A DNA stretch of 64,000 bases from positions 1-64,000 of the forward strand of contig JAJEIH010000078.1 of assembly GCA_022827685.1 (NCBI GenBank). Reading direction: 5' to 3'. Positions 27,259 to 38,699 of this stretch are shown here, one piece after another. Source of the stretch: Alphaproteobacteria bacterium (GTDB lineage: Bacteria > Pseudomonadota > Alphaproteobacteria > Bin95). The translations under genes were made by a program, and so were the position numbers. A model generated the notes under the pieces. That model had not been told where the DNA came from. It saw nothing but the letters and a program-made list of their open reading frames with translations, and made no database searches. Position 1 is the stretch's first letter. Every line of letters starts with the position of its first letter.

Positions 27259-27507
27259 CGGAGAGGCTCCGCCGGTCGTCAAGGCGTTGCTGCCGGAAGT
27301 CGATCCGGTCGTAATTCGCAGCTCTTCCGGTGCGTTCATTTGCCTGCAGGCGTCGGTTCTTTCTCCGGTTCTCTTCTTCCAGGACATTGTGTTGTTTCCG
27401 TTGCGCCGGGATGAAACCGGGCCGAAGAAGCAGAGAAGCAACGCTGGCGCGGAGACGATTGGGCGCTATGATTGCAGCAACGCAAGCGGCGGGATTGGCC
27501 GGCAAGC

Positions 27508-28245
27508 ATGAGACTGCGGATCAAGTTGGGATTGGCGTTCCTGGCCGGCGTTGCCTTTTCTCTCGCACTGGTCGTGTATGCCGCACTCGACACATTCGAT
27601 CGCGAACTCCAAACCGTTAAGGCGTCGCATTTCGGCTTCACCGTCGATGAAATCGCCCATGCGGTTACGGTCCGCACAGATTTGGGCCTTCGACTCGAAA
27701 CCATCCCGGAAATTGCGGCATTGCTGGACCGTATCCAGGCGGCCGACCCGGATATCGACCGGCTGCTGGTTTTCGGGGCGGACGGCCGGGTCGTATTCTC
27801 CACCGACCAGACAGACCTCGGGACCACGATCGATACCGGTGACCGGACCGGGCGCTGGATCGAGGCGGATGAGCGGGCGGTGACGGTGGGCAGCCCGCTC
27901 ATCAACAATTTCGGCAAGGTCGTCGGGGGCGTCCTGCTGGAAAGCGAAGTCCGGCACAGCGCGCCGCTGCGCGAACGCGCGGCTATTACCGTTTTCGGCA
28001 TTGCCGCCGGTGCATTCGCGGTCTGCCTCCTGCTCGTTTTCCTGTTTGCCCGCTGGGTGCTGCATCCCGTTCTCGACATGCTGAGGCGAAGCGATGCCTC
28101 GTTGCTGGCGATGGCGGAAGGCCAGGCGGTGAACGTAGAGGGTGCGCCGCCGTCGCTTGCAGGTTTCCATGACACTGCGGCGAGAATGCTGGCGACGATG
28201 GACGACGATGCGCGCGAGGTCGACCGGCTGGACCGGATCGGATGA
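27508..28245 (+). CDS. Two-pass membrane sensor partner protein (cassette A)
   Basis: A 245-residue protein with membrane segments at about 5-25 and 159-183. The periplasmic domain between them reads as a small Cache/PAS-like sensor (PDIDRLLVFGADGRVVFSTD) and ends with VGSPLINNFGKVVGGV at 127-142. The cytoplasmic tail of about 60 residues is HAMP-like and has no output domain. It shares topology and the VGxPxINNFGKxxGGV motif with the protein at 34275-35027, so the two are paralogues. Its stop overlaps the start of the phosphatase gene by four bases, which suggests a complex of the two proteins. The ligand is unknown. Confidence 0.75.
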   Translation: MRLRIKLGLAFLAGVAFSLALVVYAALDTFDRELQTVKASHFGFTVDEIAHAVTVRTDLGLRLETIPEIAALLDRIQAADPDIDRLLVFGADGRVVFSTDQTDLGTTIDTGDRTGRWIEADERAVTVGSPLINNFGKVVGGVLLESEVRHSAPLRERAAITVFGIAAGAFAVCLLLVFLFARWVLHPVLDMLRRSDASLLAMAEGQAVNVEGAPPSLAGFHDTAARMLATMDDDAREVDRLDRIG

Positions 28246-31166
28246 CGGGCATGGGACGGGTCTCGCGAATGATCTGCCTGAAAGCCTGCGTCGCTGCCAT
28301 CGTGGTTGCGCTGTTGCAGGCGGTCCTGACGACCGCAGCGTTCCACTGGTGGGCCGAGGAGCCGCTGACGGGCGAGCTCGACCGCAAGGCACTCGCGGTC
28401 GGTCAGGCTATGAAGGCCGAGATGGAGCGCGCCGCTCGGGTCGGCATCCCGCTCGAGGAGCTCCGGGGAGTCGAGCCATTCTTCCAGCGCTTCCTCGACG
28501 ACAACCCGGACATACGCTTCATCGCAATGACCACGCCGGACAAGGAGCCGGTCTATTTCAGCGGCGTCGCGCGCACCCGGCTGGAAAAAGTCCTTGAGTC
28601 GGCGGAGACCGCATTTGAGGAGCGCCGCCTAGCGGGAGGAATGACGGAAGCCCGGAGCCGTCACACCTTCGGCGACCTTTCTGTCGATATCCGTCCGATA
28701 GGTCCGGCGGACTATCCGCTCGCCCTCTTGCATGTCGCAGTTGAAAAGGACTTCGTGACGCATGTGCTGCGTCGCAATTGGCCGGGCTTTGCCATTGCTG
28801 GCGTCGTCGGCATCCTCGTCGGCTTGCTGTGCACGATCATTCTGACATTACGGGTCGGCCGGCGCTTGCAACGCCTCGACGACGGAATCGCGCAAGCGGC
28901 CGGCGGCCACCCGGTGCTGCTCGCGGATCTGGGGCAGCGGGATGAAATCGGCTATGCCGCCCGCGCGTTCAATGCAGTGCTGCACGGCCTCCGCACGCGA
29001 TATGACGAAACCCTGGATCATGCGGAGGACGCCCGGGACGCCGCAGTCGGCCGGACGGTGCGGGATTCGCTGGAACGCATTCGCCGGGGGCTGGTTCAGA
29101 GGCTGGAGCCGGCCTTCCGCGATATTCCCCCGACGCCGCCCACCGCGGTCGGCCGCTTCGGCAGGAATGTCTCGATACGCCTGCGGCTGACGGCAATCAT
29201 CAGCCTTGCGGGGCTTCTGCTGGCGGTGGGCCTCGGCTACGGCAGCATCGTGCGTGAGCGCCTTCTTGCCGAAAGCTATAACGAGGACCGCGAGACGGCA
29301 CTGAAGACCGTCTGGAAGACCTTGTCGCAGCGCGAGACGGACACGGTCGCGCGCCTGCTGGTCCCGTTGCGCGCCAACGAAGACATCCGGTCCGCCCTTC
29401 TCGCAGGCGATACACTGCTCGCCGCGCGCCTGATCGAGGATCTTTCCGCGGGAAGCGGAATCGAACGGCTCGTGACTTTCGACCCCTCGGAAGGAGCAGG
29501 GGGACGCCTGTTCGTAGGCCGCAACCCCCTGTCGCCGCGCGTGGCCAAGCGAATCGTCGATACCGGAACGCGGGCAAGCGGCGGCGACATCGACGCCGAC
29601 GGACGACCGGTCTGGACGGTTGCGGAGGCCTTGGGAGACTCTGAGCAGGGCGATGTGTTGATCGTTGCCGCAAGCCTCCCGCTCGCCTCCGCGGTGCAGG
29701 AAGCGGGTGCGGTCCTCGGCGGAGAAGCCTTTCTGGTCGGGAGCGAGGGTGGACTGATCTTCGGCACCGACCCGCCGCTCTGGCAAGGTCTGGACCAAAA
29801 CAGCGCGGACTATTCTACGACGACAACGAACATCCCAGCCCTGAACGGCGGACGTCTCGCCGGCCTGCATGTCGTCGCCGATATCAGCGAACTCGCTGCG
29901 CGGCAGCAGGCGCTGCGCATTGCCTATTTCGGAGCAGCGGCGGTTTTCGCCTGCATTGCCCTTTGGGCGCTCTATGCAAATCTGAGCGGCTCCCTGCAGC
30001 CGCTCGACCGGGTGATCGGCGTGCTGGAGGCGCTCTCCGACGGCCGGCGCGGCGTGTGGCTCGAACAGGAGGCCGGCAGGGACGAAATTGCCCGCATCGC
30101 CAGGGCAGTCGAGGCGTATCGAAGTTCCCTGGGCGAAGTCGAACGCCTGTCGGCCGAGCGCCGCCGGGCGCAAAGGCGGCGCGAACGCTTCCTGCGCCAG
30201 CAGATGGCCGGACTGACCTCGGCTGTGGGCGCGGAAGCCCGCCAGGCCGTTACGGACCAGCTCGCCGAGCTCGAACGGGAAGGCGCCAGTGACGAGTTCG
30301 AGGCTCTCACGCTCGTGTTCGAACAGATGGCGCAGCGCATCCGTGAACAGCATGGACGCCTGACCGAGCTGATCGAGGAACTGCGCGAGGCGCTCAAGCA
30401 CAAGGAACGCCTGGTCGCGATCGAGCGAGAACTGTCCATCGCGCACGACCTGCAGCTCTCGGTGCTGCCGCGCGAGACGCCGCCGCAGCGTACCGTGGAG
30501 ATCGCCGCTCAGATGCTTCCGGCCAAGGAGGTCGGCGGCGACTTCTACGACTATTTCGCCATCGACGAACAACGCATCGGGCTCGTCATCGCGGATGTCT
30601 CGGGCAAGGGCATTCCGGCCGCCTTCTTCATGCTGATTGCGCGCACCCTGCTCAAGGCCACCGCTCTGATCGGTGAGTCGCCGGGCAGGGTGCTGACCGC
30701 GTTGAACGACATGCTGGAGGCCGAGAACGAGCAGATGATGTTCGTGACCGCCTTCTATGCTGTCGTGAACACCGAAACCGGCCATGTGACCTTCGCCAAT
30801 GCCGGACACAATCCGACTTACCGGATCGACGGCGGGGGGAAGCTATCGACCCTGCCGATGGATCCCGGCCTGGCGCTCGCCATCATGCCGGGATTCAATT
30901 TCGAGGAGGGGGAGACGACGCTGGCGCCGGGCGACACGCTGTTCCTTTACACGGACGGCGTGAACGAGGCCTTCAACGAAGCGGGCGAGCAGTTCGGCGA
31001 GCCGCGGCTGGAAGCGGAATTGGCAGCCCATGCAGACGCCTCGCCGGCCATCATTTGCGATGCGATGCGCGCGTCGGTCGAGGAATTCTCGACAGGAGTC
31101 GAGCAGAGCGACGACATCACGACGGTGGCGGTGCGCTATCTGGGAGACGGTCCGGCCGCGTCCTGA
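28242..31166 (+). CDS. Membrane PP2C/SpoIIE phosphatase with two sensor modules
   Basis: A 974-residue protein. Membrane segments lie at about 13-34, 182-203, 315-335 and 560-580. The two periplasmic regions are 35-180 (with GIPLEELRGVEPFFQRFLDD) and 336-558, each followed by a HAMP domain (204-256, 582-632). A basic coiled coil (632-735) leads to a SpoIIE/PP2C domain at 738-968. Metal-binding acidic residues are present: GGDFYDYF (766-773), ADVSGKG (784-790), TDGVNEA (904-910) and SDDITTV (956-962). Such RsbU-type phosphatases act on anti-sigma-antagonist proteins, but none is encoded nearby. The 3' end overlaps the convergent ATP-grasp gene by 31 bases. Confidence 0.9.
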   Translation: MTGMGRVSRMICLKACVAAIVVALLQAVLTTAAFHWWAEEPLTGELDRKALAVGQAMKAEMERAARVGIPLEELRGVEPFFQRFLDDNPDIRFIAMTTPDKEPVYFSGVARTRLEKVLESAETAFEERRLAGGMTEARSRHTFGDLSVDIRPIGPADYPLALLHVAVEKDFVTHVLRRNWPGFAIAGVVGILVGLLCTIILTLRVGRRLQRLDDGIAQAAGGHPVLLADLGQRDEIGYAARAFNAVLHGLRTRYDETLDHAEDARDAAVGRTVRDSLERIRRGLVQRLEPAFRDIPPTPPTAVGRFGRNVSIRLRLTAIISLAGLLLAVGLGYGSIVRERLLAESYNEDRETALKTVWKTLSQRETDTVARLLVPLRANEDIRSALLAGDTLLAARLIEDLSAGSGIERLVTFDPSEGAGGRLFVGRNPLSPRVAKRIVDTGTRASGGDIDADGRPVWTVAEALGDSEQGDVLIVAASLPLASAVQEAGAVLGGEAFLVGSEGGLIFGTDPPLWQGLDQNSADYSTTTTNIPALNGGRLAGLHVVADISELAARQQALRIAYFGAAAVFACIALWALYANLSGSLQPLDRVIGVLEALSDGRRGVWLEQEAGRDEIARIARAVEAYRSSLGEVERLSAERRRAQRRRERFLRQQMAGLTSAVGAEARQAVTDQLAELEREGASDEFEALTLVFEQMAQRIREQHGRLTELIEELREALKHKERLVAIERELSIAHDLQLSVLPRETPPQRTVEIAAQMLPAKEVGGDFYDYFAIDEQRIGLVIADVSGKGIPAAFFMLIARTLLKATALIGESPGRVLTALNDMLEAENEQMMFVTAFYAVVNTETGHVTFANAGHNPTYRIDGGGKLSTLPMDPGLALAIMPGFNFEEGETTLAPGDTLFLYTDGVNEAFNEAGEQFGEPRLEAELAAHADASPAIICDAMRASVEEFSTGVEQSDDITTVAVRYLGDGPAAS

Positions 31167-32164
31167 CCCCACTGCCGGTCGAGGCTTGTGGCAAGAATGT
31201 GCTCGACCAGGGCCTCCGAGGATATGCCTGCGCGCGCCGCGCTTTGCGCGAAGGCCATCGCGCCGCCGATCGAGCAGGCGAGGTTGAACTCAAGGAAGGC
31301 GTGTCCGGCGGGACCGAATCGAAAATCACAGCGCAGATAGTCGTATGGCTCCACCGCTCTCGCGAACCGCAGGGCGTCTTCGACGATGGGCTTGAGCCAG
31401 GGCTCATCGCCGGGGAACTCGCGTGTGAGACCGGGTTCCAGCTTCCGTTTCTGACGGTGGGTGAATAGCCCGTAAGGACTGTCGCAGGTCTGGGTAGCGG
31501 GGGGCAGGGCCACCGGCCCGTCCTCGCCCACCAGGATCGGCACCGTCACGTCGAAATCACCGAAGACCTGCTCGACAAGGCACTCGTCGATGCTGGCCCC
31601 CAGAACCGCGACCCGCGCTTCGAGGGCATTGAAATCCTCTTGCGCGCTCGAGGCGTCAATGCCTGTCGATGCTGCGCCGAAACGCGGCTTGGCTACATAG
31701 GGTCCGTCGAAGTCCGGCTTCTGCAGCGGGCCGTTTCCTGCGAACACTTTCCCGTCCGGCGCCGGTATGCCGAGCGCCCGCGCCGCCAGCTTGCTCAGCC
31801 ACTTGTCTTCGGCGAGCGCGCGAATGTTCGCCGGCGCGCCCATGCAGGCGATGCCGGCTTTCGCCGCCAGGGCGGAGACGTAGATCTCGGAATTGCGGAA
31901 CGGCGCAATGTTGTAGAGCGAGAAGACGTAATTCCGTCCTTCGAAGGCCTGGGGTACGACGTCGAGATTGGAACTGCTTTCGACATCCAGGCCGAGACCG
32001 TTTTGCAGCACATCCCAGATCTCATACTGGTAAGCCGGCTGCACGCCGTAATCCGGATGGATGTCCGGAGGCCTGGGTGTGTCGGGCGACGGCGCATGAG
32101 GCGCCAGATACAGGATTTTGACCGCAGCGCGGCGTTTGGCGTCCAAACGTTTCAGGGCGATCAA
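31136..32164 (-). CDS. ATP-grasp ligase, D-Ala-D-Ala-ligase-like (copy 1)
   Basis: A 342-residue ATP-grasp protein. The core blocks are GAPANIRALAEDKWLSKLAAR near residue 117, the ATP-lysine strand GPYVAKPRFGAASTGID near 165, and the metal ligands in YLRCDFRF and LEFNLACSIGG near the end, corresponding to the D/E/N set of Ddl. It starts with TTG 32164, overlapping the stop of the upstream binding-protein gene (TTGA). It is a clear paralogue of the protein at 33268-34278. ATP-grasp enzymes join a carboxylate to an amine through an acyl phosphate; the substrates are unknown. The peptidoglycan ligase role is unlikely because of the divergent glycine loop and the two-copy context. Confidence 0.85.
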   Translation of the reverse strand: MIALKRLDAKRRAAVKILYLAPHAPSPDTPRPPDIHPDYGVQPAYQYEIWDVLQNGLGLDVESSSNLDVVPQAFEGRNYVFSLYNIAPFRNSEIYVSALAAKAGIACMGAPANIRALAEDKWLSKLAARALGIPAPDGKVFAGNGPLQKPDFDGPYVAKPRFGAASTGIDASSAQEDFNALEARVAVLGASIDECLVEQVFGDFDVTVPILVGEDGPVALPPATQTCDSPYGLFTHRQKRKLEPGLTREFPGDEPWLKPIVEDALRFARAVEPYDYLRCDFRFGPAGHAFLEFNLACSIGGAMAFAQSAARAGISSEALVEHILATSLDRQWGQDAAGPSPR

Positions 32165-33174
32165 GAATCGGCTCCGGTCTTGATGAATTGGGCGAAGCGC
32201 AGGATTTCCATGGGCGGATACACCTTCAGCTTGTGCGCCGTCTCCATGTTGACCACGAAGGAGAAACGGGAGAGCGTTTCGATGGGGATGTCGCCGGGGT
32301 CCTTGCCGCCGGTGAGAATCTGCTCCGCCTTGAAGGCCGCGAATTGTCCGACCGCATAGAGCGGGCTGACGAGCCCCGTCATGCAGTGCTGCCGGATCAG
32401 GGTCTCCACGCCGCAGAAAGTCGGCAGCCCGAGTTCGGTTGCTGTGCGGGTCACGAACTCGGCATGGGCGCCGAAGAAGTTGGACGGCGGGATATAGAGG
32501 AAATCGACCCCGGCCTGTTTCAGGCGCCGGAGCGTCGGCTCTATCTGGGCCGGGTCCCGCTCGACCTTGGGCTCCGTCGGGCTGTCGGAGATGAATTCGA
32601 TGCCGGATTCCTCAACCAGGGTCCGCATGGAGGCCTCGGTGCGGCGCTGCGCGCCCGAACTCTTGTCGTAGAGCATGCCGAGCTTCTCGAAGGGCATGTA
32701 GGTGCGCATCGCGTTGAGGCGCACGAGGTTCGAGACGACATGCCTTGCCCCGGTGATGTTGCGCTTCGAAAGCATCGGCGCCGCCGGGTCCGGAGGCTGG
32801 GGCACCAGTTGCGACCGGGCAGGAAACGAGACCATCGAAAACACGACGGGAATGTCGAGGACATGCTTCTGCGGGTCAGCCTCTTCAAGCCGCCCGACGA
32901 CCGCGCGCGTCACCGAGGTCGTCTGGGTATAGACGAGGTCGGGCTTGAGCGCCTTGATCTCCTCGACATAGCCGGGAAGACGGGATCGGTCGTTCTCCAT
33001 GTCGCGAAGGACGAAGTTCGCATCGACGCCGTTCGCCGTCAGGTAATCGCGAAAGCCGTCATCCGCGCCCGACCCGGCGCGATGCACGATCATGTAGATG
33101 GTGAAGGGATCGGCTTGGGAAGCCGGGGCCGCCACGGTCGAGATGGCGAGCGCCAGCAGAAGCACTCGTAACAT
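32161..33174 (-). CDS. Periplasmic ABC-type substrate-binding protein (TrpX/DUF534-like)
   Basis: A 337-residue exported protein with signal peptide at residues 1-21 (MLRVLLLALAISTVAAPASQ, then A). The mature part follows the pattern of the ABC sugar/amino-acid-like family with TrpX: KPDLVYTQTTSVTRAVVG, IPVVFSMVSFPARS, NITGARHVV and DFLYIPPSNFFGAHAEFV. No permease or ATPase gene lies in the window near it, so it may serve a sensor or a transporter encoded elsewhere. It heads a two-gene minus-strand operon with the ATP-grasp protein and is divergent from the second ATP-grasp gene. Confidence 0.85.
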   Translation of the reverse strand: MLRVLLLALAISTVAAPASQADPFTIYMIVHRAGSGADDGFRDYLTANGVDANFVLRDMENDRSRLPGYVEEIKALKPDLVYTQTTSVTRAVVGRLEEADPQKHVLDIPVVFSMVSFPARSQLVPQPPDPAAPMLSKRNITGARHVVSNLVRLNAMRTYMPFEKLGMLYDKSSGAQRRTEASMRTLVEESGIEFISDSPTEPKVERDPAQIEPTLRRLKQAGVDFLYIPPSNFFGAHAEFVTRTATELGLPTFCGVETLIRQHCMTGLVSPLYAVGQFAAFKAEQILTGGKDPGDIPIETLSRFSFVVNMETAHKLKVYPPMEILRFAQFIKTGADS

Positions 33175-33267
33175 GGGGAGGCGGGTCCGTTGCGTTGCCG
33201 GTGGAAGGGTTGAAGGTTATCATACGCTGGTTCCCTGTAATTTCGACACACATCTGGCCAATTTGCG
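33175..33267. promoter_or_regulatory. Divergent control region of the sensor/ATP-grasp locus
   Basis: The 93 bases between the minus-strand binding-protein operon and the plus-strand ATP-grasp operon must hold both promoters. The right half (about 33215-33265) is more AT-rich and contains TATCAT and TGTAAT, which are candidate -10 elements, but I cannot pair either with a convincing -35 box at normal spacing. No obvious inverted repeat operator is seen. Confidence 0.4.
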
Positions 33268-34278
33268 ATGCAAGAGCTGTTACAAATCGGCCCGGATCGG
33301 CGTGAGGAGCTGGATATCCTGTTTCTCGCCAAATACGCAGAGGACTGGACCGAGCCGCCGCCCACGGTGCATCCGCGCTACGGGCGGGAACTCTACACCA
33401 AATTCGAGGTGCTCTCGGTCCTGCGCGGCCTGGCGCGTTCGGTGGAGCCCTGCGCCAGCCTCGAGGCTTTCGAAGAACGCATGCGCCGCGGACCGGCGCC
33501 GGACTACATCTTCCAGATCTACAACCGGGAGCCTGTCCGCAATCCCGAGATACTGGTGTCCGCGCTCTGCGCGCGCACTGGCGTTCCCTATCTTGGCAGC
33601 CCGCCCAATGTGCGCGCCATGGCCGAGGACAAGTGGATCACGAAGCTGATGGCCCGGGCCGCGGGCCTGTCGGTGCCCGAAGGCGCCGTGGCGGTCGCCG
33701 AGGCCGATCTTGACGAGCCGCCCGGCTTCGACGGGCCCTATTTCGTCAAGCCCCGATTCGGCGCCAACTCGGAAGGCGTCGATGAGGGCTCGATCTGCGA
33801 TGGCTGGGAAGAGGCGCGGTCGCGGGCATCAGCCCTGCTGGCGGCCGGCGAGGAGGCGCTGATCGAGACCCTGGCGCCCGGCCTCGACGTGACCGTGCCG
33901 GTGCTGGGCGGGCCTCTTGCACTTCATCCCGTCGCCAACCATTCCGAACTGCGCGAAGGCGTGCAGACCGAAGGGCAAAAGCGCTTTCTGGAGCCAGGGA
34001 AACGGGGGGAACCCTTCGACGACGACGCCCTTTGCGAAGAGCTCCGGGAGGCGGCGGTTGCGTTCGCGAAGCTGGTGCAGCCCTGCGACTATCTCAGGGT
34101 CGATTTCCGGGTCGCGCCGGACCGGTCCTTCCGCCTGCTCGAGTTCAATGTCACCTGCAACCTGGCGACGGTCATGTCCATGAATATCGGCGCGGGCGCC
34201 GCGGGCGTGTCGCACGCGGCGATGATCGAGCATTTCCTTTGCTACAGCATGCGGCGCCAGGGGGTGCTGGCGGCATGA
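33268..34278 (+). CDS. ATP-grasp ligase, D-Ala-D-Ala-ligase-like (copy 2)
   Basis: A 336-residue protein paralogous to the one at 31136-32164. It shares the block LGSPPNVRAMAEDKWITKLMAR, the strand GPYFVKPRFGANSEGVD, and the metal-binding end YLRVDFRV ... LLEFNVTCN. The N-terminal domain has the same lead (LDILFLAKYAEDWTEPPP; PPTVHPRYGRELY versus PPDIHPDYGVQPAY in copy 1). Its stop overlaps the start of the sensor gene at 34275 by ATGA, so it is co-translated with the sensor and MFS genes. ATP-dependent amide or ester bond formation is expected; the substrates are unknown. Confidence 0.85.
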   Translation: MQELLQIGPDRREELDILFLAKYAEDWTEPPPTVHPRYGRELYTKFEVLSVLRGLARSVEPCASLEAFEERMRRGPAPDYIFQIYNREPVRNPEILVSALCARTGVPYLGSPPNVRAMAEDKWITKLMARAAGLSVPEGAVAVAEADLDEPPGFDGPYFVKPRFGANSEGVDEGSICDGWEEARSRASALLAAGEEALIETLAPGLDVTVPVLGGPLALHPVANHSELREGVQTEGQKRFLEPGKRGEPFDDDALCEELREAAVAFAKLVQPCDYLRVDFRVAPDRSFRLLEFNVTCNLATVMSMNIGAGAAGVSHAAMIEHFLCYSMRRQGVLAA

Positions 34279-35027
34279 GGCTGCTGGTTGTCCTGAACGC
34301 CGCTTTCCTGTGCGCCTTCGCGGTGACGATGGCGCTGATGATCCTGCTCAACCAGCAGAAATTCTCCGACATCCTGCGCGGGCTGGACGATTCGCGGGTC
34401 TCGGTCGTCACGCTCGACGCGTCCCGCCGGCTGCGGCAGGCCGTGGACCTCGGACTGCCGCTCAAGGACATCGCCGAGAGCCGGACCATGGTGGAGGCGC
34501 TGGTCGCAGAGCATCCGGAACTTCAGTCCGTCAGCATTTTCGATGCGGGGGGCAGGCTGCTTGTGCATGGCGGCAACGGGTTGAGCGGCGGAGGGTCGGA
34601 GGCGCCGCGGGTCTGGAGCGCCGGGAACCGGGAGGCGGCGGGGGAGGTCTGGCGCATCGAGGATCCGGAATCCTTCGTGGTCGGCGCGCCCGTCATCAAC
34701 AATTTCGGGAAGCTCGAAGGCGGCGTCGCGGTCCGCTACAGCAAGGCGCGTTTCAGCGGCATCGTCGAAGGGCTGACGGCGGAACTTCTGGAGGCCGCAG
34801 CCCTCATCTTCGTTGCCAGCGGGCTGCTGGCGGTGCTGGGAACCGCGGCCGCCCTCTGGAGACTGACAAGGACCGCCCGCTATCTGCGTCAAAGCGTTGA
34901 GAACCTTCTGGCGCCGGATCCGGGCGAAACGCCGTCGGACACCGACCTTGCCGAATTCGTCGGCTACAGCGCCTCCGTGCGGGAAACGGCGGCGACGCTG
35001 GCAGCTGCCGAAAGGAATACACCGTGA
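34275..35027 (+). CDS. Two-pass membrane sensor partner protein (cassette B)
   Basis: A 250-residue protein with membrane segments at about 5-25 and 174-195, a periplasmic sensor domain between, and a short cytoplasmic tail without an output domain. Residues 80-92 (HPELQSVSIFDAG) and 136-151 (VGAPVINNFGKLEGGV) match the protein at 27508-28245. The sensor also carries LGLPLKDIAESRTMVEALVAEH, a small-ligand Cache-type pattern shared by many alphaproteobacterial receptors. Its start overlaps the ATP-grasp stop and its stop overlaps the MFS-fusion start, both by four bases, so all three are made from one transcript and probably function together. Confidence 0.75.
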   Translation: MRLLVVLNAAFLCAFAVTMALMILLNQQKFSDILRGLDDSRVSVVTLDASRRLRQAVDLGLPLKDIAESRTMVEALVAEHPELQSVSIFDAGGRLLVHGGNGLSGGGSEAPRVWSAGNREAAGEVWRIEDPESFVVGAPVINNFGKLEGGVAVRYSKARFSGIVEGLTAELLEAAALIFVASGLLAVLGTAAALWRLTRTARYLRQSVENLLAPDPGETPSDTDLAEFVGYSASVRETAATLAAAERNTP

Positions 35028-37054
35028 GCGCCGAGCGCAGCGGCCGCCAGCGGGCTCCGACCCTTGCGGGCGTCGGCGTCCGCATCGGTTTCGTCGCCGT
35101 GGCGGCTCTCGTCGCCGCAAATGCGTTCCTGGCCTGGATTGCGCTCGGCGCAGTCGAGACGAGGCTGGAGCCGGTCATCAAGGACAAGGCGCACGTCCTG
35201 GCCCGGTCGATCGCCAACGATCTCTACACGGCGGTGCGCCTCGATATTCCGGTCCGGGGGCTGAGGGGCGTGGACGCCTATCTGGACGACCTGCTGACGG
35301 ACCACCCGGAGGTTGCCTATCTCGCCGTGACCGACGCCGGGGGCAAGGTGCTGTTCTCGGCGGAGGCCGACGACGGTGTCGAGGTCAGTTCCCACCCGTT
35401 GGCCGCGAATGCCGGCACCTTCGTTTCGATCGGCTCCGACTACAACATCGCGCATCCCCTCGTTCATGACGGCAAGCAGGTCGGGCATGCAATGGTGGGT
35501 ATAGACCGGCGTTATGTCCGCAACACCATGGCCGGCATCTTCACCGATATCGGCATTTCGCTGTGCGTCGCCATCCTGATCGTTCTCGAACTCACCCTGC
35601 TGGTGCTGTCGCTTACGGTCGCGCGGTCCATCGGCCTGATGAGGCGGTTGATGCATGCCGTCAGCGAAGGGGACTTCTCGGCTTCCATAGCCACGCGCGG
35701 GCGGGACGATCTGGCCCGGGTCATCGATGCGATGAACGGCATCAATACCGAGATCAACCGGCGTTTCCGCGAATTGGTCGCCGCCGGCGGCGCTGTCGAG
35801 AGGCTGCGGGAAGGGCGGGTATTCGCCGAGGCGGGCGCTTACCGGCCCGTGCAGGTGCTGCGCGCCGGAGATGTACAGTATCCGCTGTTCTTCTTCATTT
35901 TCGGCGTCGAGCTGTCGCGTCCGTTCTTCCCCCTCTTCGTGCGCGACCTTTACGATCCCGCGCTCGGCATCGATGCCTCGATCGCGATCGCCATGCCGAT
36001 GTCGGTCTGGGTAGTCGCAATGCTGTTCACGACGCCGCTCGCGCCGACGCTGATCCGGCGCCTGGGCACGCGCAACACACTGCTGCTCGGCATGGCGCCT
36101 ACGAGTGTCGGCCTTATCGCGACGGCTTTCGCGACCGGGTTCATCGAACTCATTGCGTGGCGTTGCGTGACGGCGGCGGGCTTCGGCCTCGTCACCGCGG
36201 CTATTCTCGTCAGGCTCGCCATCACGGCGCCGGAACGCCGGCGCGCGCTCAATATCGGCGTGTTCGTAACGGCCACGGGCGGCGGCAGCATCTGCGCGAC
36301 CGCAATCGGCGGTATCCTCGCCGAACGGCTGGGATACGAAAACACCTTTATCGTCGGGGCGACCATCGTCTTCGTCGCCATGACGATCACCTACGGCTTC
36401 CTGTCGTCGGAGGAAGGGGTCGGGACCAGCGTCGGTACGCCGGCCCATCGCAGGCGGCTGGGAATTTACGGCAGCGTGAGATTCATGACATTCATGGCGC
36501 TCTCGGCCCTGCCGTCGCGGACCGTGCTCACCGGCTTCCTGTTCTTCCTCGTGCCGCTCTATCTCGATTCGCTCGATTTCGGCGGGGCGGCCATCGGGCG
36601 CACCATGATGGTCTATTTCCTGGTTCTGCTGGTCATGAACCAGGCGGCGGCGCTGATAGCCGACAGGTTCCAGAACCACGGCATGCTGATCGTCGTCGGC
36701 GGGATTTCGGTTGCAGCCGGGTGCCTCCTGTTCGTTTCCACGACCGACGCCCTCTTGCTGGCCTGCGGCGTCGCGCTGATCGGGCTCGGCCAGTCCTTCG
36801 TGATGACGCCGCAAGTGGCCGTGCTGCCGACTTATTTCAGGTCCGAAACGGAGGCCTTCGGCACCGGCCCGGTCACGGCGGCGTTCCGGGTGGTGGAACG
36901 CGCCGGCAGTATTGCCGGCCCCCTGCTTGCCGGGAGCATCGTCGCTTTTGCCGGGCTGCAGCATGCAGGCCGGCTGCTCGGCTACGGCATAGCGGTCACG
37001 ACCCTGTTGCTGGCCCTGCTGCTCGTTGTTGGCGTGTTCACCCGCCGGCACTGA
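35024..37054 (+). CDS. Sensor-HAMP head fused to an MFS transporter
   Basis: A 676-residue protein of unusual design. Residues 20-42 and 173-198 are membrane segments framing a periplasmic sensor (DIPVRGLRGVDAYLDDLLTDHPEVAYLAVTD split around the loop at 82). Residues 199-250 form a HAMP-like region with the sequence VSEGDFSASI. From about 284 to 676 there is a complete MFS unit of about 12 segments, with the loop RRLGTRN after segment 2 and FMTPQVAVLPTYF late in the chain. The head matches the N-terminal sensor of the phosphatase at 28242. Transport regulated directly by ligand binding is the simplest reading, but is inference. Confidence 0.82.
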   Translation: MSAERSGRQRAPTLAGVGVRIGFVAVAALVAANAFLAWIALGAVETRLEPVIKDKAHVLARSIANDLYTAVRLDIPVRGLRGVDAYLDDLLTDHPEVAYLAVTDAGGKVLFSAEADDGVEVSSHPLAANAGTFVSIGSDYNIAHPLVHDGKQVGHAMVGIDRRYVRNTMAGIFTDIGISLCVAILIVLELTLLVLSLTVARSIGLMRRLMHAVSEGDFSASIATRGRDDLARVIDAMNGINTEINRRFRELVAAGGAVERLREGRVFAEAGAYRPVQVLRAGDVQYPLFFFIFGVELSRPFFPLFVRDLYDPALGIDASIAIAMPMSVWVVAMLFTTPLAPTLIRRLGTRNTLLLGMAPTSVGLIATAFATGFIELIAWRCVTAAGFGLVTAAILVRLAITAPERRRALNIGVFVTATGGGSICATAIGGILAERLGYENTFIVGATIVFVAMTITYGFLSSEEGVGTSVGTPAHRRRLGIYGSVRFMTFMALSALPSRTVLTGFLFFLVPLYLDSLDFGGAAIGRTMMVYFLVLLVMNQAAALIADRFQNHGMLIVVGGISVAAGCLLFVSTTDALLLACGVALIGLGQSFVMTPQVAVLPTYFRSETEAFGTGPVTAAFRVVERAGSIAGPLLAGSIVAFAGLQHAGRLLGYGIAVTTLLLALLLVVGVFTRRH

Positions 37055-38699
37055 CCACCGCTTCGATCAGGACGGGGCCCGAGCCCGCGAGCGCATCCCG
37101 GTAAGCCTTGCGGAAGGCGGCCGGCGTCTCGACCCGCAAGGCGGCCATGCCAAAGCCTTCCGCAAGCCGCGTGGCGTCGATAGGCGGATCGCGAAAATCC
37201 ATCCCTATCGGCGCGTCATTGTCGTGAAACGCCTTCATCCTGTCCTTCAGGATGCGGTAGCCGCCATTGTTGGCGATCACGAAGACGACCGGCAGCCGGG
37301 CGTTGACGGCGGTCCACAATGCCTGGATCGAATACATAGCGCTGCCGTCGCCAATAAGCGCCACCGTGCGCCGGGCGGGCTGTGCGATCTGCACGCCGAC
37401 GGCCGCCGCAATGCCCCATCCGATACCTCCCGAGACATTGCCGAAATATCCGTTCGCGTCCCGGAACGGCAGGAAGTCCAGAAGGCGCGCGCCAGTGGTG
37501 ATGCCTTCATCGACGACAATGCCGTCTTCGGGCAACTCTTCGGCAAGGCACTTGCAGAGCCAGGCCGGCGGAATGGGCCCTGCATCTTCCGGCACCTCCG
37601 CCAGGGCGTCCGCCGCCTTGCGCCGGTTCGCGGTCCAATTGCTTCCGGCAAGCGCAGCGATGCGCTCCCGCCGGCTTGCGCCGAGCTTGTCCTCCAGTAC
37701 CGGATTCAGGGCTGCAAGCGTCTCCCTCACATCGCCCAGCGCGGCGATCTCGGCGGGATAGTTCTTGGCAAGTTCCCAGTCCCTCAGACCGATCTGGATG
37801 ACCGACATATGGTCGGGCAGCGGGTCCGTTTCGCTCCAGACCGACATGCGCAGAAAATCGGCTCCGAGGCCGACGATCAGGTCGTAGGGCGCAAGCGTCC
37901 GGCGGACCTGGGGCTGACTGCGCGTGAGTGCCCCCATGAAGCAGGGGTGCTCCGAGGAAAAATGCGCGCCCTGGGGCACGCTTTGCTGATAGACGGGCGC
38001 GCCCAGCAATTCGGCGAACCGGGCGGCGGCATCGAGCGCATCGCCGGTGGCCGTCTCATGGCCGGCGAGGACAACCGGATTTGCGGCTGCGGCAATCCGG
38101 TCGGCCATCGCCGCCAGCGACTCGTCCGAAGGGCGGGCGCGGGCATCGACGCGGGTAGCCTGGCCAAGATCGATGGCCTCGTGGCGGTTCAGGATGTCTC
38201 CGGGCAGGGAGATGAACACGGGCCCCGTCGGCGGCGTCGTCGCAACCTTGGCGGCGCGGCGCAATATGCGGGGCAGGTCCTCGATTCTGGAGACTTCGAC
38301 GGCCCATTTGACCACCGGCTCGGCAATCGGGGTGAGCGGGGCATAGAGGAGCGGTTCCGTCAGCCCGTGGCCCTGTTCCTGCTGGCCGGCGGTCACGATG
38401 ATCGGCGAGCCGCTTTGCGAGGCGGTGTAGAGCGCGCCGATGGCGTTTCCCAGCCCCGGAGCGACATGAACATTGCAGGCCGCCAGCTTGCCGGACGCGC
38501 GCGCATAGCCGTCGGCCATCGCGACGACCACCGATTCCTGCAGTCCCAGCACGTAGCCGAGGTCGGTCTGCTCGGTCAGCGCGTGCATGATCGGCAATTC
38601 CGTCGTGCCCGGATTGCCGAAGAGATGCGTGACGCCCTCGTCCTTGAGCACGGCAAGGAAGGCGCTGCGGCCGCTGATCGCGTTGGAAGGGGATGACAT
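37038..38699 (-). CDS. Benzoylformate-decarboxylase-like ThDP enzyme
   Basis: A 553-residue thiamine-diphosphate enzyme of the acetolactate synthase/benzoylformate decarboxylase group. The activating Glu is in LQESVVVAMADGYA near residue 54, the active-site His region is NVHVAPGLGNAIGAL near 77, and the ThDP motif runs from GDGSAMYSIQALW to NNGGY. The central domain (about 190-330) lacks obvious FAD-specific features. The family decarboxylates 2-oxo acids or makes 2-hydroxyketones; I favour decarboxylation because of the benzoylformate-type N-terminus. Its 3' end overlaps the convergent MFS fusion by 17 bases. The SDR gene upstream on the same strand may act on its aldehyde or ketone product. 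Confidence 0.88.
   Translation of the reverse strand: MSSPSNAISGRSAFLAVLKDEGVTHLFGNPGTTELPIMHALTEQTDLGYVLGLQESVVVAMADGYARASGKLAACNVHVAPGLGNAIGALYTASQSGSPIIVTAGQQEQGHGLTEPLLYAPLTPIAEPVVKWAVEVSRIEDLPRILRRAAKVATTPPTGPVFISLPGDILNRHEAIDLGQATRVDARARPSDESLAAMADRIAAAANPVVLAGHETATGDALDAAARFAELLGAPVYQQSVPQGAHFSSEHPCFMGALTRSQPQVRRTLAPYDLIVGLGADFLRMSVWSETDPLPDHMSVIQIGLRDWELAKNYPAEIAALGDVRETLAALNPVLEDKLGASRRERIAALAGSNWTANRRKAADALAEVPEDAGPIPPAWLCKCLAEELPEDGIVVDEGITTGARLLDFLPFRDANGYFGNVSGGIGWGIAAAVGVQIAQPARRTVALIGDGSAMYSIQALWTAVNARLPVVFVIANNGGYRILKDRMKAFHDNDAPIGMDFRDPPIDATRLAEGFGMAALRVETPAAFRKAYRDALAGSGPVLIEAVVSAGG

Follow-up and report, generated by a model that had tools for sequence, protein, structure and literature searches.

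A receptor-type sensor head fused to a 12-helix MFS transporter within a conserved gene module

In the 64,000-nucleotide stretch of alphaproteobacterial DNA that we analyzed (the window), a gene at 35024-37054 on the + strand encodes, from a GTG start, a protein of 676 residues in which a sensor and HAMP head of the receptor type precedes a complete MFS transporter. This architecture is real and conserved, and we found no description of it in the open-access literature searched. To judge from gene neighbourhoods, the fusion belongs to a conserved module, which the initial annotation of this DNA had not seen, and its being kept beside a half receptor and a periplasmic binding protein (SBP) in many genomes suggests a transporter that is switched directly by an outside signal.

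Results

The fusion gene was defined from its ORF and translation, Pfam, AlphaFold2 and homologues, and its sequence and predicted structure together confirm the chain order as TM1, a periplasmic single-Cache fold, TM2, HAMP and a complete 12-helix MFS domain. On the + strand, TM1 covers residues 16-40 (35069-35143; hydropathy and the AlphaFold2 helix at 14-72), the sensor domain residues about 41-165 (35144-35518; AlphaFold2, Foldseek), TM2 residues 166-200 (35519-35623; hydropathy, and dN/dS for residues 178-200) and the HAMP domain residues 195-250 (35606-35773; Pfam, a profile match to solved HAMPs, and AS1 and AS2 of the AlphaFold2 model). A linker from HAMP AS2 to the first TM of the MFS domain occupies residues 254-281 (35783-35866; AlphaFold2), and the DHA1-like MFS domain extends over residues 284-676 (35873-37051; Pfam, sequence likeness to NorA and the VMAT2/NorA fold). 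The full-chain AlphaFold2 model, for which 21 homologues served as input (two rows from plasmid records were omitted), has a pLDDT of 80.3 and a pTM of 0.74. Apart from the helix at 14-72, it contains Cache strands at 97-104, 109-114, 141-148 and 151-160, a helix at 162-214 that comprises TM2 and HAMP AS1, AS2 at 229-253 and MFS helices that start at 282, while the linker at 254-281 is not modelled as a continuous helix and differs in both length and sequence among homologues. The initial annotation had proposed the input half of a receptor joined to a full permease, and this is borne out by Pfam, AlphaFold2 and Foldseek. Its boundaries for the permease (284-676) stand, and its head at residues 20-250 is here refined to the sensor at about 41-165 and the HAMP domain at about 195-250.

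Modelled alone (residues 1-283), the head has a pLDDT of 84, and its best Foldseek match is WalK, followed by histidine-kinase sensor domains (prob 1.00). The model shows the long N-terminal helix and PAS-like sheet of a Cache fold, flanked by two TMs, and a profile built from 32 heads matches the solved HAMPs of AF1503, HtrII and NarQ, as well as the periplasmic domain of DcuS. Pfam Cache models score below their cut-offs in the fusion (13.3 vs 45 bits for dCache_1; 12.8 vs 28.4 for sCache_3_2), and we therefore describe the head as a Cache-like fold rather than as a member of a Pfam Cache family; related heads on kinases do pass the Pfam cut-off (sCache_3_2, 8.5e-17). After TM2, AlphaFold2 predicts the helix-connector-helix arrangement of a HAMP domain, which the profile matches relate to the solved HAMPs. 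Pfam places HAMP at residues 195-238 (8.2e-5; 23.3 bits, just under the curated cut-off of 25) and finds it at E<=0.1 in 14 of 23 members, with no match in the other 9. Since these nine have no Pfam match and since most alphaproteobacterial two-sensor forms have no room for it, HAMP is not essential. The initial annotation had allowed that the N-terminal region might prove not to be a HAMP/sensor fold; as structure prediction folds it as Cache plus HAMP, this objection falls away. Neither an MCP signalling domain nor a kinase domain was detected at the C-terminus by Pfam or AlphaFold2, the MFS domain being found there instead.

The MFS domain is recognized by Pfam MFS_1 at residues 289-616 (1.3e-26; 93.8 bits vs a cut-off of 33.4), and the same model is above its cut-off in all 23 homologues. 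Among the matches listed by Foldseek, the best PDB matches of the full model are the MFS antiporters VMAT2 and NorA, with a TM-score of about 0.8 on target length, as expected of a 12-TM MFS fold; NorA is also the closest by sequence. At motif C (GP..GG in TM5), the window protein has ATAIGG, and its motif A is degenerate; several relatives carry CGPAIGG and DRxGxR at motifs C and A, respectively. Conserved MFS features and an acidic residue in TM1 (E296 in the window protein) are present in nearly all members of the main MFS domain. The TM11 region (residues 620-642) contains R622, E625, R626 and G628, which are invariant across 23 homologues and form an FRxxERxG signature whose charges are unusual for a membrane helix.

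A tblastn search of 385 alphaproteobacterial genomes gave a match in 39, with about 20 places at which head and core are spanned in one open frame, and a head-MFS fusion was found in 3 of 274 sampled gammaproteobacterial genomes. The single-frame fusion recurs across both classes, at 23-40% identity, and full-length relatives lie on replicons of Azospirillum brasilense and Vibrio sp. THAF190c. That MFS proteins rarely carry such a head, as the initial annotation held, agrees with the presence of fusions in well under a tenth of the sampled alphaproteobacterial genomes. A frameshift, or an assembly or annotation error, could in principle have joined two genes, and the initial annotation had foreseen two genes with a frameshift. 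This explanation is of negligible probability, as the same uninterrupted frame recurs in complete plasmids and in genomes, about 20 or more, that were assembled independently, and we found nothing in its support. An antisense ORF at 34964-37051 (-) is of the mechanical kind typical of GC-rich DNA, and no function was assigned to it.

When compared with four relatives of the same genus, the different parts of the chain showed dN/dS values of 0.00-0.06 (TM2), 0.04-0.10 (HAMP), 0.10-0.12 (MFS) and 0.17-0.31 (Cache), such that purifying selection is stronger on TM2 and HAMP than on the MFS domain, and weakest on Cache. When the MFS cores are placed on a tree, the headed proteins fall into a single supported group (100/96). 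Two headless proteins branch within this group, and for this reason the MFS domain can probably work without a head. The two-sensor label requires about three changes on this tree.

To describe the surroundings of the fusion, we considered 22 one-head loci, namely the window, one other locus from its genus and 20 more. Neighbourhood loci were chosen by the MFS match alone and scanned with HMMs of the head, core, half receptor, SBP, SpoIIE and ATP-grasp. In all 22, a half receptor with two TMs and no effector adjoins the MFS gene, typically via a 4-bp overlap. In the window this is HALF2 (34275-35027, +), identified by profile match and synteny as a TM-Cache-TM protein and the putative partner of the MFS head; its stop and the GTG start of the fusion share 4 bp (GTGA). 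Half receptors of this type are homologous to the head (hhalign probability 99.2%, E 1.3e-19). Half receptor, head and MFS domain are joined in a single 855-residue chain in two gammaproteobacterial genomes; apart from these, a large clade in Alphaproteobacteria carries two sensor modules ahead of the MFS domain, mostly without room for HAMP. Such natural fusions offer the best evidence, at the level of sequence, that half receptor and head would pair. Pairwise distances of core, head, half receptor and SBP correlate with r of 0.78-0.90, although shared ancestry yields the same, and as all parts share ancestry, this mirror-tree comparison is uninformative beyond linkage. Proteins of 355 residues at L121:8071-9138 and L122:1112-2176 consist of half receptor and head with no output domain, and a close relative of the SBP is encoded alongside.

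An ABC_sub_bind SBP is likewise encoded near the MFS gene in 22/22 one-head loci, usually directly downstream, and it directly adjoins most two-sensor loci. The window SBP (32161-33174; Pfam 4.8e-15), which has an N-terminal signal segment, lies on the opposite (-) strand and is flanked by ATP-grasp, half-receptor, MFS and SpoIIE genes. It is the only PF04392 match in its 4.3-Mb genome, so that this genome encodes no homologue that would serve as the binding protein for a dedicated ABC uptake system, and the window cluster holds no ABC permease or ATPase gene of the kind found in TrpXYZ-like importers. An adjoining ABC_sub_bind SBP is also seen where related heads are borne by hybrid histidine kinases, as assigned by Pfam (L112:9089-11245 and L114:9825-12731), and at L113:7097-9979, which encodes a protein with a related head. 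As the SBP adjoins heads on kinases (L112, L114) or on no output at all (L121, L122), its occurrence tracks the head and not the MFS domain.

Two ATP-grasp genes complete the surroundings of the fusion in the window. GRASP2 (33268-34278, +; Pfam Dala_Dala_lig_C 5.8e-6), which resembles D-Ala-D-Ala ligase, is the first gene of the MFS operon, and GRASP1 (31136-32164, -), assigned by homology to GRASP2, overlaps the SBP gene by 4 bp. All junctions in the operons GRASP2-HALF2-MFS and SBP-GRASP1 are such 4-bp overlaps. The two proteins, which flank the SBP gene (31136-34278), are 41% identical, and both are only weakly D-Ala-D-Ala ligase-like. Between the divergent operons SBP/GRASP1 and GRASP2/HALF2/MFS lies an intergenic region of 93 bp (33175-33267), where a consensus scan found two promoter-like matches vs 0.5 expected over the scanned region. 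ATP-grasp genes are also neighbours of the A. brasilense fusion and of many of the two-sensor loci in Alphaproteobacteria. At the other end, the MFS gene meets a convergent gene for a thiamine-diphosphate enzyme (37038-38699), also present in three relatives of the genus, and the last 17 bp of the MFS gene are shared between the two.

At lower coordinates, the window contains a second set of related genes. A SpoIIE (PP2C-type) phosphatase of 974 residues (28242-31166, +; Pfam SpoIIE 2.2e-52), the only PF07228 match in the genome, carries an N-terminal head, over which the head HMM covers residues 5-284 (1e-34), as well as a second sensor-HAMP unit. It overlaps by 4 bp with its own half receptor, HALF1 (27472-28245, +; half-receptor HMM 3e-65), which is 30% identical to HALF2. 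STAS proteins are encoded elsewhere in the genome, and no anti-sigma or STAS gene lies beside the SpoIIE receptor in the examined part of the window. SpoIIE or adenylate cyclase accompanies the MFS gene in many other loci, and neither is found in the examined stretch of the one-head loci L052, L060, L062, L104, L105 and L109. Second cassettes were also seen at L054:12637-14664, L058:12581-14473, L059:5448-7343, L064:7027-9201 and L108:3185-5392. In these, the head sits on a degenerate 12-TM domain that is only remotely MFS-like, with its own half receptor and with a SpoIIE phosphatase or adenylate cyclase next door, which suggests a membrane domain that can act in signalling instead of transport.

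In both Alpha- and Gammaproteobacteria, the module also occurs within or beside type VI secretion clusters (L104, L105, L106, L107, L072 and L126). In L104 it runs directly into VgrG, DUF6931, PAAR and ImpA genes, and gene sizes in L105 and in the Vibrio plasmid L072 match this layout. In L106 the module lies between ClpV-like and TssK (VasE) genes, with the same layout in L107, and in the alphaproteobacterial genome G274 the order VgrG, DUF6931, TssB, TssC starts about 4.6 kb after it; DUF6931 comes after VgrG in both classes. TssK was found in 10 of 30 genomes checked, and in 7 of the 10 it is no more than about 32 kb away from the module. As the window genome has no TssK, type VI secretion was rejected as the function of the window module, and the module is not specific to such systems.

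Discussion

The initial annotation had suggested that ligand binding outside the cell could gate transport directly, and such gating is our best hypothesis, with the addition that it would also require the half receptor, the orphan SBP and, in many loci, the SpoIIE phosphatase. We thus propose, tentatively and at somewhat less than even probability, that the module is a receptor-controlled secondary transporter that is gated without a kinase. In the periplasm, the orphan ABC_sub_bind protein would capture a small ligand and, once loaded, dock on the heterodimer that HALF2 and the MFS head, which are homologous Cache sensors, would form. The half receptor would thereby supply the second chain that Cache/HAMP dimers need, so that the monomeric MFS protein need not dimerise. 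The change would then be relayed by TM2 and the HAMP bundle to where the MFS domain begins, and would switch transport with no enzyme step, while the pair of HALF1 and the SpoIIE receptor would read the same signal in parallel and give a phosphatase (partner-switching) output. From the gene arrangement, we infer that the SBP acts as a ligand-loaded co-receptor of the Cache pair, and it is more likely that the ligand is carried by the SBP than that it is bound by the head alone. As to the direction of transport and the substrate, we speculate that transport is export, as would fit the DHA1-like fold, and that the ATP-grasp ligases of the same operons make or alter the cargo. One could reasonably guess at a peptide-like compound that leaves the cell through the DHA1-like MFS domain and is then sensed on the outside. 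It should be considered that mechanical coupling is not obvious, as the linker between HAMP and MFS does not form a continuous helix in the model.

Signals might also flow in the other direction, with the MFS domain acting as a transceptor that senses its substrate or transport itself and signals back through the HAMP and Cache domains, first to the half receptor and the SBP and then to SpoIIE or cyclase, transport being secondary. The SpoIIE or adenylate-cyclase receptors that adjoin many loci would fit such an arrangement, as would the fusion of the head to the SpoIIE protein itself in the second cassette of the window, and the second cassettes in which the same head bears a degenerate 12-TM domain directly beside SpoIIE or cyclase keep this reading alive. 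We nonetheless consider it unlikely, given the six one-head loci without SpoIIE or cyclase in the examined stretch, and given the conserved MFS features and TM1 acid, which argue for a working transporter. SBPs deliver ligands in TRAP and ABC systems, and the Cache heads could, in a comparable manner, offer the SBP a docking site from which its ligand passes to the MFS domain for uptake, with HAMP as a spacer or weak gate. At most loci the SBP gene comes directly after the MFS gene or overlaps it, and the window genome has no further SBP of the ABC_sub_bind family, both of which speak for such uptake. However, the SBP is also found beside heads with kinases or without a transporter, the closest folds are DHA1-type antiporters, which are mostly exporters, and HAMP is more constrained than the MFS domain, which is odd for a spacer; uptake of this kind is thus improbable.

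Less probable again is a passive fusion, in which head and MFS domain are functionally independent and the head does no more than partner the half receptor or the SBP in the membrane. While a variable, non-helical linker and the existence of close headless relatives speak for such independence, the join has persisted over large divergence in two classes and was repeated with an added second sensor, and HAMP is conserved where present. What the sequences establish for the gated transporter is its architecture and that this is conserved, together with the gene partners and the half receptor-head-MFS fusions. The fuller form of the gating proposal, a new kind of signalling output in which an SBP-loaded Cache/HAMP heterodimer gates a transporter in the same complex without a phosphorylation or nucleotide signal, with a twin SpoIIE receptor and with versions wired to type VI systems, is possible but somewhat doubtful.

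By fold and profile, the head is the same TM-Cache-TM-HAMP unit as in Cache-HAMP receptors, which include the WalK and DcuS kinases, chemoreceptors and cyclases. Whereas their output is a kinase, cyclase, phosphatase or MCP domain, that of the window protein is a 12-TM secondary transporter. A large survey of Cache proteins (PMC4822843) describes output domains that, SMP_2 excepted, are known from signal transduction, and its text mentions neither MFS proteins nor transporters. With DHA1-type MFS antiporters such as NorA, VMAT and MdfA, the window protein has the 12-helix core in common, but those lack a sensor head, a partner half receptor and an SBP, and motifs A and C are degenerate in the window protein. 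In the SBP-assisted receptors TorT-TorS, LuxP-LuxQ and ChvE-VirA, the gene for a periplasmic binding protein lies beside that for a membrane receptor, as it does here, where the SBP probably also docks on the sensor domain; the present module differs in its transporter output, its ABC_sub_bind SBP and its apparent heteromer with an effector-less half receptor. In Amt-histidine kinase proteins and in SLC5-STAC-kinase proteins such as CbrA, a single chain likewise contains both a transport domain and modules for signalling. A sensor role has been proposed for their transport domain, and the kinase is the output, unlike the window protein, which has a receptor input upstream of the transporter and no enzyme domain. 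For the neighbouring SpoIIE receptor, the best named-family match is SiaA, one of the SiaA/SpoIIE membrane PP2C phosphatases, which differs in having neither the extra MFS-type N-terminal head nor the half receptor.

If gating is real, HAMP signalling would gain a transporter as an output that is neither an enzyme nor a chemotaxis scaffold, and HAMP coupling would become measurable as flux. The ways in which secondary transport can be controlled post-translationally would be extended, and effector-less half receptors would gain a plausible role as heterodimer partners. That the module recurs by type VI secretion genes in two bacterial classes, moreover, suggests that type VI systems have a regulatory or export module that has yet to be described.
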